A stretch of 64,000 nt of DNA. Origin: a virus. The notes under the pieces are model-generated. The model was not told the DNA's origin. It saw only the letters and a program-made list of their open reading frames with translations, and ran no database searches. The DNA lies in the IMG/VR virus record IMGVR_UViG_3300017917_002108, positions 1-64,000 of that record; one strand, 5' to 3'. The position numbers and the translations under genes were made by a program. Shown piece by piece: positions 152 through 10,735 of the stretch; the stretch's first letter is position 1; each line of letters starts with the position of its first letter.

Positions 152-236
152 GGATGTGTAGGAAAATTGGTAACCCCAGTGGACTGTAAATCCGCCGCCT
201 CTGGCACTGCTGGTTCGACTCCAGCCGCATCCACCA
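152..236 (+). tRNA. tRNA-Tyr (GTA)
   Basis: The acceptor stem GGATGTG pairs with CGCATCC. The anticodon stem-loop carries GTA in loop CTGTAAA, the variable arm is long (class II), the T-arm has loop TTCGACT, and CCA is encoded at 234-236. It is the first gene after the promoter at 114-142. Confidence 0.9.
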
Positions 237-240
237 TTAA

Positions 241-1361
241 GAAATAGCATTGACGGGTATCGTCTATGGACGCATAGACTTATGAAGGATAGGGCCATCT
301 TACCCTTCTGAGAAAACTGTGAACAATGGCTTATGAGGAGAATCGAACTCCACTCAGAAATACGTTTCATCCCATAGGGTGTAATGTTATTTTTTAATGG
401 TAAAAATTTAAGGGTAGTTTATTATCCTGTTGGCGGCTTGCCGTTGACGAAGAATAAGTTGAGTGATCAACCCAAAGGAGGTAAGCCTACGCAACTCCGC
501 CAGCAATGGTTCATGTAAACAAGCCTGCTCACTACCGTGAGGTAGCGTTCACTTATAAGACGGGTGGATGTAACAGCAAAGCTGATGTTAGGGAAAGAAT
601 GCGTATCGACTGGCCCGCAAGGGAACCAGGGTGCGTGAAAAGTAACAGGTGGTGCTGACTTCCTAACAAAACCAATCAGTCAGTTGGTATGAGAAAGGGT
701 AGTGTATTGGTTCGAAGGGTCGCACCTAAGAGCTCGTATGCAATGTAAATGGTTGGTGGGACACGTTGCGAAACGTTGTTACACTGGTCGTGAAACATCA
801 CTGAGTAGCTCGCGAGGCAAAAGGTATGTGGTGAGTTGTATCGTGTATTCCAAAAGAGTATGCGGCAACTGAGGCAGCTCATCGCGGTAGGTTGTTATAG
901 ATCAATGGTAGATCATTTCTCTGTTAAAGAAACTGCTGTAGGTTCAAATCCTACTAACAAATCAAAAATGCAAAGACTGCCTCGGTTATGTGTGAAAAGC
1001 ATCTAATGCTTGACACGCAAGTGAATCAAGTCTAATGAAGCTCGCAAGGTGACATTAGTTTATACTGGAAGTTTCGTAACGGTTTAGCGACTGTGAATGG
1101 CTCGCAAGGTCAACGGGATAGATGGTGTAGAATAGCACATAACGACAAGCCTACTGCCTGGCTTTAAAAACGGCGATGCTGATAGTGGACATAGATACAG
1201 TAATGGTCTATGTGGATGTCTAGAGAAGGTTTGCTCGCAAGGCGGACTATAATGCTAGAGGCACTATTGGCTAACGTGTAATCTCAGCGTTAGCACTATT
1301 CTAAAACACATTCGCAACCAAATGGGAGTGAAATGTCCGCGGGGAGTGTGTTTCAGAATAG
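241..1361 (+). ncRNA. Giant structured noncoding RNA with an embedded tRNA (GOLLD/ROOL-like)
   Basis: About 1.1 kb has no plausible gene but many strong helices. Seen pairings: 262-268/273-279, 306-312/353-359, 431-436/497-502, 458-462/467-471 with loop GTGA, 532-536/541-545 with loop GTGA, 614-616/621-623 with loop GCAA, 867-877/977-987 enclosing tRNA-Asn, 997-1002/1006-1011, 1032-1037/1053-1058, 1147-1151/1160-1164, 1189-1195/1207-1213, 1270-1276/1288-1294, and 1296-1310/1347-1361 (two 7-bp blocks). A bulged GNRA hairpin of type GCTC-GNRA-GGY recurs at 808, 1040, 1100 and 1233. Large ornate RNAs of the GOLLD and ROOL classes are known next to phage tRNA genes, and GOLLD RNAs can contain a tRNA. 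Assignment to a class is inference, and both boundaries are approximate. Confidence 0.68.
891..962 (+). tRNA. tRNA-Asn (GTT), embedded in the giant RNA
   Basis: A complete cloverleaf is visible: D-stem GATC/GATC, anticodon stem TTTCT/AGAAA with loop CTGTTAA (anticodon GTT), and T-stem GTAGG/CCTAC with loop TTCAAAT. Unlike the other tRNAs here it encodes no CCA and has a G1-A72 mismatch. It is enclosed by an 11-bp helix (867-877 with 977-987), so it is a domain of the surrounding RNA. Whether it is excised and charged cannot be told. Confidence 0.82.
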
Positions 1362-1367
1362 ATTTAC

Positions 1368-1446
1368 CCGAGTGTAGGATAGTCTGGTTCATTCCGCCTG
1401 CTTTGGGAGCAGGATGTCGCAGGTTCGAATCCTGCCACTCGGACCA
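1368..1446 (+). tRNA. tRNA-Pro (TGG)
   Basis: Acceptor CCGAGTG pairs with CACTCGG. The anticodon loop TTTGGGA (TGG) closes on CCTGC/GCAGG, the T-arm is GCAGG-TTCGAAT-CCTGC, and CCA is encoded. It begins six nucleotides after the last helix of the giant RNA. Confidence 0.9.
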
Positions 1447-1451
1447 AAAGC

Positions 1452-1526
1452 GCCTCGTTAGTTCACCGGTAGAACGTCGCCCTTACAAGGCGAATGCAGT
1501 TGGTTCGACTCCAGCACGAGGCACCA
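1452..1526 (+). tRNA. tRNA-Val (TAC)
   Basis: Acceptor GCCTCGT pairs with ACGAGGC. The anticodon loop CTTACAA gives TAC on stem TCGCC/GGCGA. A canonical T-loop and an encoded CCA are present. It lies 5 nt after tRNA-Pro, so both are probably processed from one transcript. Confidence 0.92.
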
Positions 1527-1532
1527 GTTAAC

Positions 1533-1621
1533 GGAGAGGTCCCATAATGGTATTGGAGCAGATTGCTAATCTGTCGGTCGCTAAAAACGTCTTCGGGGTT
1601 CGAGTCCCCGTCTCTCCGCCA
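1533..1621 (+). tRNA. tRNA-Ser (GCT)
   Basis: A class II tRNA of 89 nt with a long variable arm. The acceptor GGAGAGG pairs with TCTCTCC (last pair G-U), the anticodon loop TTGCTAA gives GCT, the T-arm is GGGG-TTCGAGT-CCCC, and CCA is encoded. Confidence 0.9.
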
Positions 1622-1645
1622 TTTCATTTTTAAGGAAAATAAAAT

Positions 1646-1831
1646 ATGCTAAAGCCAGGTCCGAATTATAGAATGAGTAAACAGGGTAAGAGAACATTAG
1701 CCACTAATCGAATGATTGATGCACACTATCGAGGTGCTATCAAGCGTTCTATAATTCAAGCAGAGTTGGCTGCCGCTATTCAACCTAAGCGTGAAAAGAA
1801 TCGTCGAGATTCTAATACCGCAGGAGAATAA
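1646..1831 (+). CDS. Small basic hypothetical protein (61 aa)
   Basis: The ORF starts at ATG 1646 after an AAGGAAAA purine run and ends 1 nt before the next gene's ATG. The product is rich in Lys and Arg, with a central helix-prone stretch (residues about 20-48) and no membrane segment. I do not recognise a family. It sits between tRNA-Ser and a cysteine-motif gene, inside the tRNA cluster. Its tight coupling to the next gene and its proper ribosome site support it being real. Confidence 0.7.
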   Translation: MLKPGPNYRMSKQGKRTLATNRMIDAHYRGAIKRSIIQAELAAAIQPKREKNRRDSNTAGE

Positions 1832-1832
1832 C

Positions 1833-2090
1833 ATGTCTGATGGTGGAAAAGGGTCTAGACCCAGACCATTCAGTGTAAGTCAAGATACATTTTCCCAAAA
1901 TTGGGACCAGATTTTTACAAAGGAAAAATCCATGCAGGTAAGAGCAGATCAGATCAAAGAAGGTGGTGTAAGTTGTGGATGCGGTCGTAGTCCTACCGGT
2001 CATTGTATTGGTTGGCACGGTTTATCAGAAGCAGCATTCCAAGCCAAACTTCAAGAATACCTTAAAGAACAAAAGACAGCTGATAAGTAA
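1833..2090 (+). CDS. Small protein with a CDGSH-like Cys/His motif (85 aa)
   Basis: The start at ATG 1833 is chosen because CAGGAGAATAAC directly precedes it; an in-frame upstream ATG at 1791 lies inside the previous gene and has no such site. Residues about 48-62 read CGCGRSPTGHCIGWH, with spacing C-x-C-x7-C-x-G-x-H. This is close to the 2Fe-2S CDGSH signature but one residue shorter and with CIGWH in place of CDGSH. A helical tail follows. Metal binding, as zinc or an Fe-S cluster, is likely; the role is unknown. Other Fe-S genes (IscU, IscA, ferredoxin) occur elsewhere in the window. Confidence 0.72.
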   Translation: MSDGGKGSRPRPFSVSQDTFSQNWDQIFTKEKSMQVRADQIKEGGVSCGCGRSPTGHCIGWHGLSEAAFQAKLQEYLKEQKTADK

Positions 2091-2096
2091 TTCGTT

Positions 2097-2172
2097 GGGG
2101 GTTTAGCTCATCTGGGAGAGCATTAGCTTTGCAAGCTAAGGGTGATCGGTTCGAGTCCGATAACCTCCACCA
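2097..2172 (+). tRNA. tRNA-Ala (TGC)
   Basis: Acceptor GGGGGTT pairs with AACCTCC (one G-U pair). Anticodon loop TTTGCAA (TGC) sits on stem TTAGC/GCTAA. D- and T-arms are canonical and CCA is encoded. Confidence 0.92.
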
Positions 2173-2176
2173 ACAT

Positions 2177-2252
2177 GCCCTTGTAGCTCAGTTGGTAGAG
2201 CAGTGGTTTTGTAAACCAAAGGTCGGGAGTTCGAGACTCTCCGGGGGCACCA
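2177..2252 (+). tRNA. tRNA-Thr (TGT)
   Basis: Acceptor GCCCTTG pairs with CGGGGGC (G-U pairs allowed). The anticodon loop TTTGTAA gives TGT, the D-arm is the standard AGCTCAGTTGGTAGAGC type, the T-loop is TTCGAGA, and CCA is encoded. Confidence 0.9.
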
Positions 2253-2269
2253 AGATTACCAAAAATGTC

Positions 2270-2297
2270 TTGACAAAGACATAAAAGAATGTATAAT
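2270..2297 (+). promoter_or_regulatory. Consensus sigma70 promoter ahead of rpoZ leader
   Basis: TTGACA at 2270-2275 and TATAAT at 2292-2297 are separated by 16 bp. Transcription would start near 2304, exactly where a 9-bp hairpin begins, about 280 nt before rpoZ. Confidence 0.87.
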
Positions 2298-2303
2298 ATT
2301 TTT

Positions 2304-2586
2304 GTTACAGTAGAAATACTGTAACCGGTGAAGCAGAAGGTAGATGAGGGTAGACGCTTGTATGGCTTCATTGCCGTACAGACTTAATCTGGCAAAGACG
2401 CTTGAAACGTCTCCGTGCTTGGGTGATCCGATTTTATCTAATGTCATTTGCTGATCGGAAATATTCAGGTCTCTGTCGCCTGTATATTGCACGTTGTCTA
2501 GACCGACGATATCGAACAATAGGTCTTGTCAATTGTCCGGTCTATTACTTGACCTTTTGCCGACCCGTCACTTATTAAGGAAGCAC
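2304..2586 (+). ncRNA. Long structured leader or small RNA upstream of rpoZ
   Basis: The predicted transcript opens with a perfect 9-bp hairpin, 2304-2312 with 2317-2325, capped by a GAAA tetraloop. More stems follow: AGACG/CGTCT, CCGAT/ATCGG, CAGG/CCTG and GACC/GGTC pairs, plus a TTGC...GCAA hairpin containing CAGA/TCTG. No open reading frame is convincing. It could be a stable small RNA, a regulatory 5' UTR controlling rpoZ, or both. I cannot match it to a known riboswitch. Confidence 0.5.
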
Positions 2587-2832
2587 ATGGCTAGGATTTC
2601 AGCAGAAGAAGCAGTAAAGGCGATTGGAAACAGATTTGATCTGGTATTGGTCGCTAGTCAAAGAGCCAGAGAAATTAAAAACGGATCCAGACCTAAGATC
2701 TCGGATCAAGATTCAACGCCCTGTGTAGCGGCATTGAAAGAAATTGAAGAAGGCAAATATACCTACAACGATTATTTGAAAACTGTACAACGAAAGAAAA
2801 AAGGACAAAGAGATGAATATTTCCCTACGTAA
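2587..2832 (+). CDS. rpoZ: RNA polymerase omega subunit (RpoZ homologue)
   Basis: The 81-aa product starts [20 protein letters not shown] and continues [10 protein letters not shown], then [11 protein letters not shown]. This follows bacterial omega closely (E. coli: [20 protein letters not shown], then ALREIEEG). The start at ATG 2587 is set by AAGGAAGCAC just upstream and by homology to the omega N-terminus; an earlier in-frame ATG at 2494 is not used. Omega helps fold and assemble beta-prime, and its MAR(V/I)(T/S) N-terminus is part of a ppGpp site in E. coli polymerase; it is kept here. The gene follows its own promoter and long leader and overlaps the next ORF by 20 nt. A phage copy could replace host omega and change polymerase or stringent behaviour; that is inference. 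Confidence 0.9.
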   Translation: [81 protein letters not shown]

Positions 2833-3385
2833 GGCCAATGCCATCCAGAATAACATCAACGAGGCTATCCGTGGTATCAAGATCGAAACCACAGTAGAAC
2901 TCAACGAGTTCCAAGATGTGGCTGCTGAGCTGCAAAAGGCCAATGACTTGGTAATCACCAATGATGCCCGCAGACAAAAACTGTTGTTGTCTCTGTACAA
3001 CATCAGAGGTCTAGTTGGCACAGCCAATGCCGGTTGTGGTATTGATTTGAATCTAGCCAAGGCCGCGTTTATTGACAAGCGTATTGGTCAGCTAGAAGAA
3101 CTAGCCAGCGTCAAGCCTGTGACTGCACTTGATGTTATTAAGGGCAAGCTAGAGAAGATTAAGAGTCTTAAAGACGAAGCTCGTAGCAGAATCTATGGGT
3201 ACGGAGATACTGTGAGTACCACAGTGGTCAGCCAAGATCAGATCGATCAGGCCAAGTCTGAGATCCTTAATCTCAAGAAACAGAAACAAAAGCTCAACGA
3301 TGAAATTCTTGAGCTCAACATCAAAACTGAGATTCCCCTCAGTGACGAAACGGTCAAACTTCTTCAGCAAGAAGGATTGATCTAA
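2813..3385 (+). CDS. Coiled-coil hypothetical protein (190 aa)
   Basis: The ORF overlaps the end of rpoZ by 20 nt; AAAGGACAAAGAG before ATG 2813 supplies a ribosome site. The product is almost wholly helical with two heptad-rich stretches, residues about 100-125 and 140-178 (the latter rich in K, Q, E and L), suggesting a parallel coiled coil. There is no signal or membrane segment. I do not recognise the family. Translational coupling to omega suggests the two may be needed together, for example as a partner of RNA polymerase, but nothing in the sequence proves it. Confidence 0.75.
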   Translation: MNISLRKANAIQNNINEAIRGIKIETTVELNEFQDVAAELQKANDLVITNDARRQKLLLSLYNIRGLVGTANAGCGIDLNLAKAAFIDKRIGQLEELASVKPVTALDVIKGKLEKIKSLKDEARSRIYGYGDTVSTTVVSQDQIDQAKSEILNLKKQKQKLNDEILELNIKTEIPLSDETVKLLQQEGLI

Positions 3386-3675
3386 CAGACCCCGGGGTCC
3401 CTTCCTCGTTATTAAAGGGGGTAATTGACTTCACCAAAACGTCAGGGTGCAAACGGTAACGACCCCAAGGCCTTGTCGGCGACTTGAGACACCGTGGCGG
3501 CAGAAGCAGAACTGACGACAAAAACATAAATGCTGATCGACAGGGTAGACAACTCAGTCTAGGGCGGAACAGGGAACCGTGGCTAGACACTTTATTAAAA
3601 CGCACTGCCGAAGTTGGTTCGGTTAGGCAAGCTGCATCCAACGAGCTATGTCCGTGAGTGCGTTTTAATAAAGTT
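3386..3675 (+). ncRNA. Second structured noncoding RNA ending in an 18-bp hairpin
   Basis: This gene-free stretch lies between a coding region and tRNA-Cys. It ends with an 18-bp perfect stem, 3589-3606 with 3657-3674. The 50-nt interior holds a CCGAA/TTCGG hairpin and an AGCT/AGCT pair. Near the 5' end is the perfect 12-bp palindrome GACCCCGGGGTC and a CCCTT/AAGGG stem. I checked by eye for RNase P, tmRNA, SRP and group I intron core sequences and did not find them. It is probably an RNA of unknown type, co-transcribed with the tRNAs. Confidence 0.5.
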
Positions 3676-3678
3676 TAT

Positions 3679-3754
3679 GGTCAGGTGGCAGAGCGACTTA
3701 TGCGCTGGATTGCAAACCCAGACTAGGTAGGTGGAAATCCTACCCTGACCTCCA
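3679..3754 (+). tRNA. tRNA-Cys (GCA)
   Basis: Acceptor GGTCAGG pairs with CCTGACC. The anticodon loop TTGCAAA gives GCA, the T-arm is GTAGG-TGGAAAT-CCTAC, and CCA is encoded. It starts 5 nt after the 18-bp stem of the preceding RNA. Confidence 0.87.
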
Positions 3755-3759
3755 ATTAT

Positions 3760-3835
3760 CGCAGAGTATGGAAGTGGTCATCCGTCCGGTCTCATAAGCC
3801 GGGAATCGCAGGTTCGAATCCTGCCTCTGCAACCA
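3760..3835 (+). tRNA. Initiator-type tRNA-Met (CAT)
   Basis: The acceptor CGCAGAG pairs with CTCTGCA except for a C1-A72 mismatch, the hallmark of bacterial initiator tRNA-fMet. The register is fixed by T8, the discriminator A and the encoded CCA at 3833-3835. The anticodon loop is CTCATAA as in fMet. The anticodon stem CCGGT/GCCGG keeps two of the three G-C pairs normally at 29-41, 30-40 and 31-39, the last being U-G. An elongator Met or Ile2 reading is less likely because of the 1-72 mismatch. Confidence 0.82.
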
Positions 3836-3840
3836 ATCAC

Positions 3841-3915
3841 CTCGCTGTAGTTCAATGGACAGAACGAATTCCTCCTAAGAATTAGATCCAGGTTCGATTC
3901 CTGGTGGCGAGGCCA
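3841..3915 (+). tRNA. tRNA-Arg (CCT)
   Basis: The acceptor CTCGCTG pairs with TGGCGAG (G-U pairs allowed). The anticodon loop CTCCTAA on stem AATTC/GAATT gives CCT. The T-arm is CCAGG-TTCGATT-CCTGG, and CCA is encoded. Confidence 0.87.
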
Positions 3916-3933
3916 AAGCGTAAATAATTCAAT

Positions 3934-4009
3934 GCGGGTGAAGTGTTTGTGGTTACACGTCAGTCTTCCAAACTGAAATAGACGAGTTCGACTCTCGCCT
4001 CCCGCTCCA
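3934..4009 (+). tRNA. tRNA-Gly (TCC)
   Basis: Acceptor GCGGGTG pairs with CTCCCGC with one mismatch. The anticodon loop CTTCCAA on stem CAGT/ACTG gives TCC, the T-loop is TTCGACT, and CCA is encoded. It is the last tRNA of the array. Confidence 0.87.
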
Positions 4010-4668: not shown

Positions 4669-4887
4669 ATGTCAAAAAACGATTTAATTGAATTAACAGG
4701 CACTATAAACGAAGTTTTACCAGGTAGCATGTTTAGGGTTAAACTAGATAACATGCCCAATGTTATAACTTGCTACACAGGCGGCAAACTCAAACAGCAT
4801 AAAATTAAAATTATATTAGGCGATCGCGTTAAAGTAGAAGTAAGTGCATATGATCTTACCAAAGGACGTGTGACTTATAGATTATAA
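4669..4887 (+). CDS. infA: Translation initiation factor IF-1
   Basis: The product is 72 aa, the same length as E. coli IF-1, and matches it along its length: [20 protein letters not shown] against [20 protein letters not shown], then a GK loop, [19 protein letters not shown] and a final R. This is the single OB-fold that binds the 30S A site during initiation. The start is set by AATGAGGTCAA just upstream. It has its own promoter (4613-4641). A phage copy could alter 30S selection or favour phage start sites, which fits with the initiator tRNA next door and the probable leaderless genes in this window; that link is inference. Confidence 0.93.
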
Positions 4888-4894
4888 GTAAAGT

Positions 4895-5113
4895 ATGTAT
4901 GAAGTAAAATGGCAAGACACAGCGGGTAGAGGCTGTGTGGAAGAAGTAATAGATCTATCAGCAGCACTGGCATTGGCCACTGCACTAGGAATACCAGTAA
5001 CCATAAATGGAAACGGTATAGAGCTTGTAGGAACTTTTGGTTCCGCAGGCGTAGAAAATGGACGATTACCAAACGGTGATCCCTACACTTGGTACAAAAG
5101 GAGACGACCATGA
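4895..5113 (+). CDS. Hypothetical protein (72 aa)
   Basis: The ORF begins 7 nt after infA with a weak AAGTAAAG site and ends overlapping the release factor start by 4 nt (ATGA). The product shows an N-terminal strand, an Ala/Leu-rich helix (residues about 22-34) and a short basic tail. No family is recognised. Its position between IF-1 and a release factor makes a translation-related role possible but unproven. Confidence 0.68.
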   Translation: MYEVKWQDTAGRGCVEEVIDLSAALALATALGIPVTINGNGIELVGTFGSAGVENGRLPNGDPYTWYKRRRP

Positions 5114-5787
5114 AACGAGTGATTGAAATCCGTGCCGCAGAGGGCGGTGAAGATTCAAAACTATTTGTCAGCGATCTCGCGACCGCTTACCAGAAATTGG
5201 GAATGAAACTAGGTTGAACTACCCGCCTGATAGATGTACGTCTTGGCGAGTGTAGTTTACTTGTTGAGGGCGCAGATCTATCCGGCTTAGACAATGAGCC
5301 CGGAGGTCATAGAATACAGCGTGTTCCTCCCACGGAACGCAAGGGCAGAGTTCATACCAGCACCGTTACCGTCGCGGTCATAGACAGCGAGGATGCCTGG
5401 ACAGCACCAACTATACATAAGTCCGATCTAAAGATTGAATGGTATAGTGGTACTGGGGCTGGTGGACAATATCGCAACAAACATCAAAACAGTTGTCGTA
5501 TCACACACATTCCTTCAGGAATCGTAGCCAAATCAGAATGCCGTAGTCGCCAAAATAGTTTGGATTCCGCTATGGCGGAAATACAACAGCGCATTGACAG
5601 CGAAGCCAAAAGATCGTATAATAATAACATAGCCTGCAATAGAAAGCAGCAAGTTGGGTCAGGCATGCGGGGAGACAAAATCCGCACCTACAGATTCCAG
5701 GACGATTCTGTTCAAGATCATCTGACAGGCTGTAGAGCAAAATGTTCCGCAGTTTTGAAAGGCAATATAGATTTACTTTGGAGATAA
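5110..5787 (+). CDS. Short RF1-like peptide chain release factor with an in-frame UGA
   Basis: Reading one frame from ATG 5110 gives a release factor of about 225 aa lacking domain 1. Order of motifs: IEIRAAEGGEDSKLF (start of domain 2), an in-frame TGA at codon 36 (5215-5217), then GHRIQRVPPTERKGRVHTS with PPT in the place of the RF1 PxT codon-recognition motif, the catalytic GTGAGGQYRNKHQNS, and GSGMRGDKIRTYRF near the end. The stop is TAA at 5785-5787. The frame is open and conserved-looking on both sides of the TGA, with no in-frame ATG, GTG or TTG after it until Met at 5571, beyond GGQ. A potential hairpin starts at the TGA (5217-5257). UGA readthrough, TGG-to-TGA mutation, sequencing error or early decay are the alternatives. 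Confidence 0.78.
5217..5257 (+). promoter_or_regulatory. Potential recoding hairpin immediately after the in-frame UGA
   Basis: AACTAC (5217-5222) pairs with GTAGTT (5252-5257), and after a small internal loop CGCC (5224-5227) pairs with GGCG (5245-5248), with a further AGA/TCT pairing inside the loop. A stem this close to a stop codon is the type of element that promotes readthrough in several recoding systems. The pairing is visible; function is inferred. Confidence 0.45.
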
Positions 5788-9463: not shown

Positions 9464-10735
9464 TCAACGATGCCATTCGGCATGTAATCTCTCAGAGTGC
9501 GCCACTGGTTCTTTTCGAACATTAGTTTGTTTAAAACCAAACTCAGTGGCGAATTCATCTAGCTTTTCAATAGTCCATGGAAAAAAATCAATTGACTTAC
9601 AATCTTCGTGTTGATGATCTTTGAATCCTGGATTCACCCGCCAATACATTCTTCCAGTTTCTTTCAAACAGCTGACCACTTTAGCTATCTGATTTCTTAT
9701 GTCCTGTTCTGATCCAAAATTGATACTTCCATAACAGACCGCTACATCAAATAATCTATCTGGTTCATAATCTTCAATAGTGGTCATGATATCTGCCTGA
9801 TCGAAAGCGGGATCAATACCTACAACATTCTTACATAATGTCTTAAATGGATTGTATCCGCAGCCGACATCCAGGACCCATTCGTCATCCGAAATTTTAG
9901 TAGCCAATTCTCTATGAGTGTAATCAGGGCATTCGCCATAGATAGGAGCCCATTTATTAGCAAAATAATTATTAAGAGCATCTTGATTTAATTGTCTTTC
10001 TTTCTTTTGCAGTACGAAATAGAATCTATTATTGCTGTCCTTTTTAAAGGTAACTAGATTCAGATTATATTTTTTTGTGAGTTCGTAAACTGTTTCAAAT
10101 GTCCAAGGGAATATATCAACATATGGTCCGTTAGGCCATGCTATTCCTGGGTTGGCACGGAAATAGATCTTGCCCAAAGGCATTAATAATTCTATAAGTC
10201 TTTTAAATCTAATCTCTATATCGTCGAGAGAATTAAAATTAAGGCTGCCAAAGGCAATGATATGATCAAAACTTTCATTTTCTATCTTGAAGTCTAGGAC
10301 ATCTATCATATAGTCCGCACAGTTATTAAAAGGATCAATGCCTATGAGATTGTTTATCCTGCCCTTGAACTGGTTAAACCCGCATCCGAAATCTAATACC
10401 GCCTTGGGATTTTCTTTATTAATTTCGTCGACTATGGTCCAACCAGAATACTGATATCTATCAGTGTTAGGTTTCCAAATTTCTCCAAAAAATCTCATCA
10501 TGTATCTTTGATCTAGATCGCCTATAAACTGTTTAAGTGTCCCTTTTAGGTTAATATCAGTTAATGACAATTCTGATTTAATATGATTTTCAAACTTCTG
10601 CAATCTAGCAGGAGTCCAAGGCAGGTCTGTTAAAAAAGTATCTGAATTTATATTTTCTAAAATGCTCTTATACTTGGGTAATCCAAATGCGATTTCTAAT
10701 TCTTGCCATACAAGTTGTTTGATTTTTTGATTCAT
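9464..10735 (-). CDS. Tandem class I methyltransferase (two SAM domains)
   Basis: Two copies of the same methyltransferase fold are fused. The first SAM-binding loop is VLDFGCGFNQFKGRINNLIG (about residues 115-134) and the second is VLDVGCGYNPFKTLCKNVVG (about 288-307), each followed by GIDP. Each copy also has FDxxxxxGSxNF and a WRVNPG or FRANPG strand. A single-domain relative lies at 12670-13233. Such duplicated enzymes often act as pseudo-dimers. No target-recognition domain for DNA is seen, so a small molecule, glycan or protein target is as likely. It reads from a minus-strand late box at 10762-10769. Confidence 0.82.
   Translation of the reverse strand: MNQKIKQLVWQELEIAFGLPKYKSILENINSDTFLTDLPWTPARLQKFENHIKSELSLTDINLKGTLKQFIGDLDQRYMMRFFGEIWKPNTDRYQYSGWTIVDEINKENPKAVLDFGCGFNQFKGRINNLIGIDPFNNCADYMIDVLDFKIENESFDHIIAFGSLNFNSLDDIEIRFKRLIELLMPLGKIYFRANPGIAWPNGPYVDIFPWTFETVYELTKKYNLNLVTFKKDSNNRFYFVLQKKERQLNQDALNNYFANKWAPIYGECPDYTHRELATKISDDEWVLDVGCGYNPFKTLCKNVVGIDPAFDQADIMTTIEDYEPDRLFDVAVCYGSINFGSEQDIRNQIAKVVSCLKETGRMYWRVNPGFKDHQHEDCKSIDFFPWTIEKLDEFATEFGFKQTNVRKEPVAHSERLHAEWHR

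Follow-up and report, generated by a model that had tools for sequence, protein, structure and literature searches.

How a gene for a translation release factor could yield its product with a stop codon near its 5' end is the question raised by positions 5110 to 5787 of the window analysed here, a 64,000-nucleotide stretch of viral DNA (IMG/VR record IMGVR_UViG_3300017917_002108, positions 1 to 64,000) belonging to a contig of 146.6 kb. The gene is predicted to encode a class I factor resembling release factor 1 (RF1), and its frame is broken at codon 36 by an in-frame UGA. We consider it probable that the gene depends on conserved programmed readthrough of this UGA, most likely as tryptophan (Trp), which would yield the factor when termination at UGA by release factor 2 (RF2) is weak.

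The interrupted gene and its predicted product

The features on which the argument rests are as follows.

5098–5103, plus strand: strong Shine-Dalgarno (SD) sequence AAGGAG upstream of ATG 5110, retained in most relatives
5110–5787, plus strand: predicted RF1-like class I release factor gene without domain 1, 225 codons plus stop, interrupted at codon 36
5215–5217, plus strand: in-frame TGA (UGA), codon 36, aligned with the Trp conserved in bacterial RF1
5326–5334, plus strand: PxT codon-recognition motif (PPT)
5461–5469, plus strand: GGQ catalytic motif

The frame runs from ATG 5110 to TAA 5785–5787 with TGA 5215–5217 as its sole interruption, and past the TGA it stays open for 189 codons. 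The earliest ATG, GTG or TTG downstream of the TGA is TTG 5560, which lies past the GGQ motif. A preliminary description of the locus had reported this frame, the lack of a usable start before GGQ, and the PPT and intact GGQ motifs; all of these observations hold, and the motifs are of the RF1 type.

With the stop removed, the frame matches the Pfam families PCRF (1e-18) and RF-1 (1e-18), and the NCBIfam profile for RF1 (2e-56) is favoured over that for RF2 (2e-32) by 24 orders of magnitude. The score of 191 bits falls below the prfA equivalog cut-off of 400 bits, and since the match starts only at profile position 107, domain 1 is taken to be missing. The decoding loop, GGHRIQRVPPTERKGRVHTS, contains Gln, PxT (not SPF) and His-Thr as in RF1, GGQ is invariant among relatives, and all catalytic motifs are intact. 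The predicted product is RF1-like and not that of an ordinary prfA, and such a short factor, made up of domains 2–4, should act at UAA and UAG but not at UGA.

Alignment to solved RF1 structures places the TGA in the column of the Trp of a GW pair in bacterial RF1. A structure model of the product has a predicted local distance difference test (pLDDT) score of 82, and its top fold matches in the PDB are ribosome-bound RF1. The model sets codon 36 at the turn between a helix (14–34) and a strand (37–44), with a pLDDT there of about 90, so that the residues before and after the stop would belong to one fold. In a coverage-based scan of the contig, the release factor gene was the only convincing case of a gene interrupted by a stop in its own frame.

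Conservation of the stop and selection around it

Close viral homologues were collected in three scans of IMG/VR with search patterns that did not include the stop column. The comparison of homologues that the preliminary description had proposed gave a uniform result: TGA is present at codon 36 in all 91 distinct genes (91/91), which extend down to about 55–60% identity and come from many separate metagenomes. The other Trp columns of the gene are encoded by TGG, Trp111 in 31/31 genes and Trp224 in 30/31. The median ratio of nonsynonymous to synonymous change (dN/dS) is 0.128 upstream of the stop and 0.121 downstream, indicating purifying selection on both sides and a downstream coding region that has not decayed in relatives. 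A conserved stop flanked on both sides by coding selection is the combination that marks programmed readthrough, and ribosomes apparently must read through the codon-36 UGA to make the protein. As had been noted at the outset, no frameshift is needed, the phage gene continuing in frame 0.

A constrained stretch downstream of the UGA

Two further features lie directly downstream of the stop.

5218–5247, plus strand: codons 37–46, where synonymous constraint is stronger than anywhere else in the gene; a proposed 3' readthrough signal
5224–5248, plus strand: possible stem-loop beginning 6 nt past the UGA (5224–5227 with 5245–5248, 5229–5231 with 5240–5242), suggestive only

Across 68 distinct genes, synonymous constraint is maximal at codons 37–45, reaching 2.0 times the mean for the gene; median synonymous divergence (dS) is 0.30 in codons 37–46 versus 1.84 further downstream. 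This near-loss of synonymous change in the ten codons past the stop implies a cis-acting RNA signal. In the same 68 genes the base following the UGA (+4) is A in 52 and G in 16, and never U or C. The synonymous constraint itself is plainly observed; an RNA fold after the UGA is suggested by the stem-loop pairing, which is possible in 85% of cells compared with 25–47% when the pairing is slid, with nine two-sided changes.

Relatives in bacteria and huge phages

The preliminary description had dealt with a single gene. The UGA proved to be real and conserved, and the feature belongs to a whole family, in which it also occurs with UAG and with +1 frameshifting. Bacterial relatives of the short factor were collected by a scan of GTDB genomes. 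An in-frame TGA at the same column is found in Jiella sp. LLJ827, Rhodovibrio sodomensis and a Rhodospirillales metagenome-assembled genome (MAG), that is, in two alphaproteobacterial isolates and one MAG. Among 151 genomes of the Jiella family no case was found beyond the single known one, and the cellular in-frame form is thus sporadic. In Myxococcota (the cultured Nannocystis exedens among them) and related MAGs the arrangement is instead CTT-TGA one codon later, and the coding sequence past it lies in the +1 frame, as it does in prfB, the RF2 gene; these cassettes are mostly preceded by a purine-rich SD-like stretch. CTT-TAG replaces CTT-TGA in four of these members, and Novimethylophilus has CTT-TGA at another site. 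The genomes bearing the short factor also carry two full-length release factors.

In huge phages (records of 485–735 kb together with IMG/VR relatives), the family members have an in-frame TGA, TGA+TGA, TGA+TAG or TAG at other columns, and some have CTT-TGA or CTT-TAG frameshifts in their place. TGG use and TGA stops in the surroundings of the huge-phage records examined are those of the standard code. Some huge-phage open reading frames (ORFs) seemed rich in TGA read as sense, but on inspection most of these either ran on beyond the end of a gene or were spurious frames, and the release factor gene was the only interrupted gene judged real in the stretches inspected. Overall, an interruption is present in 131 of the 133 distinct viral genes collected, and TAA is never the stop involved; as weakly similar homologues or ones without the scan patterns may have been missed, this share holds for the collected genes. 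In a phylogenetic tree the phage and alphaproteobacterial in-frame genes group together (100/99), the huge phages fall in another clade with Novimethylophilus, and the canonical release factors stand apart. The variety of sites and solutions across the family shows that stop interruption recurs within it.

Several individual members may be recorded here. At loci L153, L159, L176, L189 and L318 the RF1-like gene carries a CTT-TAG cassette for +1 frameshifting, and the stop of this cassette is one that the RF1-like factor itself should read. Two in-frame stops (TGA+TGA or TGA+TAG) are present in the huge-phage loci L192, L196, L302, L308–L310, L313, L316 and L319, and for the records examined, L192 and L196, the surrounding sequence follows the standard code. 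No internal stop is present in a small number of members, bacterial and viral (L147–L149, L321 and L337), which could show what the loss of control costs. In Nannocystis pusilla (L182) the frame relation differs from that of relatives, possibly owing to a slip in sequencing or to loss of the cassette.

A proposed mechanism

In the mechanism we favour, initiation at the strong ribosome-binding site would be followed by competition between RF2 and a near-cognate tRNA at the UGA. Most ribosomes would halt at codon 36 through the action of host RF2, leaving a dead-end peptide of 35 residues. Slow termination at UGA would allow in-frame decoding by a near-cognate tRNA, of which tRNA-Trp is the most likely; the conserved RNA signal in the 30 nt past the UGA would assist readthrough, and the full factor would be made. 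Its level would report a low RF2 or UGA-termination capacity, because readthrough would take place when termination at UGA is slow. The full factor could then take over work at UAA and free RF2 for UGA, and genes with two UGA codons or with UGA and UAG may act as steeper sensors or as dual ones. Of the residues that might be inserted, Trp is the likeliest, given that RF1 has Trp in this column and that tRNA-Trp is the usual misreader of UGA in E. coli. Sensing of RF2 in particular is made more likely by the RF2-type UGA frameshift cassettes carried by relatives. Trp decoding, the role of RF2 and a benefit to the phage are the parts of this scheme that we infer.

Several observations weigh against this proposal. 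The contig is a fragment, and none of its 11 tRNA genes reads UGA; the 468 distinct tRNA genes collected from related loci include Trp(CCA), and a UCA anticodon was not found among them. In the phages that diverge most, the stem-loop is weak or missing; it shows modest covariation and overlaps coding constraint, and RNAalifold retains just its outer four pairs with a covariation term of almost nil. In addition, UGA should not be recognised by a factor of the RF1 type, which would make any loop back to RF2 indirect. The suppressor tRNA that had been suggested as a possible reader of the UGA finds no support, no UCA, CUA or UUA anticodon being present in the contig tRNAs or in the 468 from related loci.

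Alternative explanations

Programmed readthrough might serve to keep a harmful factor at a fixed low dose, or act as a switch set by a factor that the phage makes, instead of sensing RF2. An RNA signal may set a constant level, and release factor overproduction is harmful in B. subtilis, strongly for RF2 and modestly for RF1 (PMC12421855). We regard this as unlikely, as interrupted relatives use UGA or UAG and never UAA, and the RF2-type cassette is reused in several clades; together these features suggest a response to particular release factors.

A general reassignment of UGA to an amino acid, in the phage or in its host, would make codon 36 an ordinary sense codon; we consider this highly improbable. 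The placement of the UGA at a Trp column is compatible with such a code, and an RF1 without RF2 would fit it. However, among the ORFs of the contig 52/133 end in TGA (73/133 in TAA), and 24 of these 52 abut or overlap the next start. TGG is used 513 times in 54 long ORFs, ORFs of 2468 and 2001 codons are free of TGA, and Trp111 and Trp224 of the release factor gene itself use TGG. The bacterial relatives with an in-frame TGA have two full-length release factors, and in other clades TAG or a frameshift takes its place. A reassigned phage code, with in-frame UGA throughout and no UGA stops, does not agree with the stop usage of the contig, which uses the standard code, with UGA elsewhere an ordinary stop.

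Bypassing of the kind known from T4 gene 60 would have the ribosome leave GGY-35, skip the UGA and land at GGC-46. Glycine codons do flank the element, a hairpin is possible and there is little synonymous change, but three loci have GGA with a landing GGC, a pair unmatched by one tRNA-Gly, and some relatives have CGC preceding the UGA. The residues that would be skipped form a predicted strand, their aligned counterparts in the frameshift relatives are clearly translated, and we give this route, like a reassigned code, very little credence. Insertion of selenocysteine through a hairpin resembling a selenocysteine insertion sequence (SECIS) directly downstream could draw on the possible hairpin just past the UGA and the strong synonymous constraint there; with no Rfam match, no tRNA-Sec in the contig (a fragment) or among the related-locus tRNAs, and Trp in the RF1 column, its likelihood is slighter still. 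Sequencing error or a decaying pseudogene, the usual cause of in-gene stops and, with a TGG-to-TGA change, the alternative first raised for this locus, is refuted for practical purposes, since a TGA shared by 91/91 homologues from many metagenomes and dN/dS of about 0.12 on both sides, with catalytic motifs intact, exclude error, decay and drift.

Comparison with known systems

The premature UGA near the 5' end, where competition sets output, is shared with the +1 frameshift of prfB, and the Myxococcota members reproduce its layout of SD-like stretch, CTT, TGA and +1 frame. The phage gene differs in encoding an RF1-like factor without domain 1 and in leaving the reading frame unchanged, with GGY-TGA (rarely GGA-TGA) in phages and neither the slippery CTT nor the adjacent SD-like stretch of prfB. 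Some family members use TAG, which was not found in prfB cassettes in a survey of 12,753 genomes that also reported no programmed frameshift in prfA (PMC12421855). A 2016 review recounts that early in-frame UGA readthrough, once considered as a control for RF2 genes in the days before their sequences were available, was never found, frameshifting having turned out to be the natural solution, that an RF1 counterpart was unknown too, and that a giant-virus release factor formed an exception (PMC5009743). By analogy, the nearest parallel to the phage gene is this mimivirus eRF1, whose readthrough at UGAC and frameshift at CUUUAG are conserved (PMC6582330): both are viral release factor genes with conserved stops, calling for readthrough and frameshifting, although eRF1 is a non-homologous, eukaryotic-type factor from giant viruses of amoebae.

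PrfH (RFH; PMC1586002) likewise lacks domain 1 and supplements RF1 and RF2 as an additional class I factor, but the phage factor keeps the RF1 decoding loop with PxT and scores far under the PrfH equivalog cut-off (39.9 versus 166.65 bits), so that it was not assigned to that family. Canonical RF1 (prfA) provides the best sequence and fold match and shares domains 2–4, PxT and GGQ; the phage factor differs from it in lacking domain 1 and in a shorter domain 2 loop, and its family branches separately. Published huge-phage gene lists include release factors and IF1 (PMC7162821), and a term search of that paper found no mention of UGA or a suppressor tRNA. No published report of stops in this release factor family was found in a search that left most of the subscription literature outside its reach.

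Neighbouring genes

One neighbouring gene touches on translation.

4669–4887, plus strand: translation initiation factor IF-1 homologue, adjoining the release factor gene here and in close relatives

By tblastn, IF-1 is found in 28 related loci (some of them overlapping records), mostly a few to a few hundred bases from the release factor gene, which suggests that IF-1 and the release factor form a translation-factor module. The contig's left end (152–4009) has eleven tRNA genes interleaved with small ORFs, and the relative L028 has 33 tRNA genes inside 10.7 kb. A 423-codon ORF at 9464–10735 resembles a tandem duplication of a methyltransferase-like domain.

Significance

As judged by comparative evidence from sequence, control by an in-frame stop exists in an RF1-like factor across a large group of phages and in cultured bacteria. 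An arrangement described as unknown in both RF2 and RF1 genes (PMC5009743) thus occurs beside sister clades that use frameshifting, and the family represents repeated natural experiments on the sensing of release factor supply. The constrained stretch past the UGA is a candidate prokaryotic readthrough signal, and genes of this class are likely to be split or labelled as pseudogenes by standard annotation. More tentatively, the spare release factors of this widespread family, in phages and some bacteria, may use premature UGA or UAG codons to gauge termination capacity, the identity of the stop telling which host factor is watched and UGA with UAG reporting on both. Such factors could be deployed when host termination is depleted, for example by heavy phage translation or by a host defence that puts release factors out of action.
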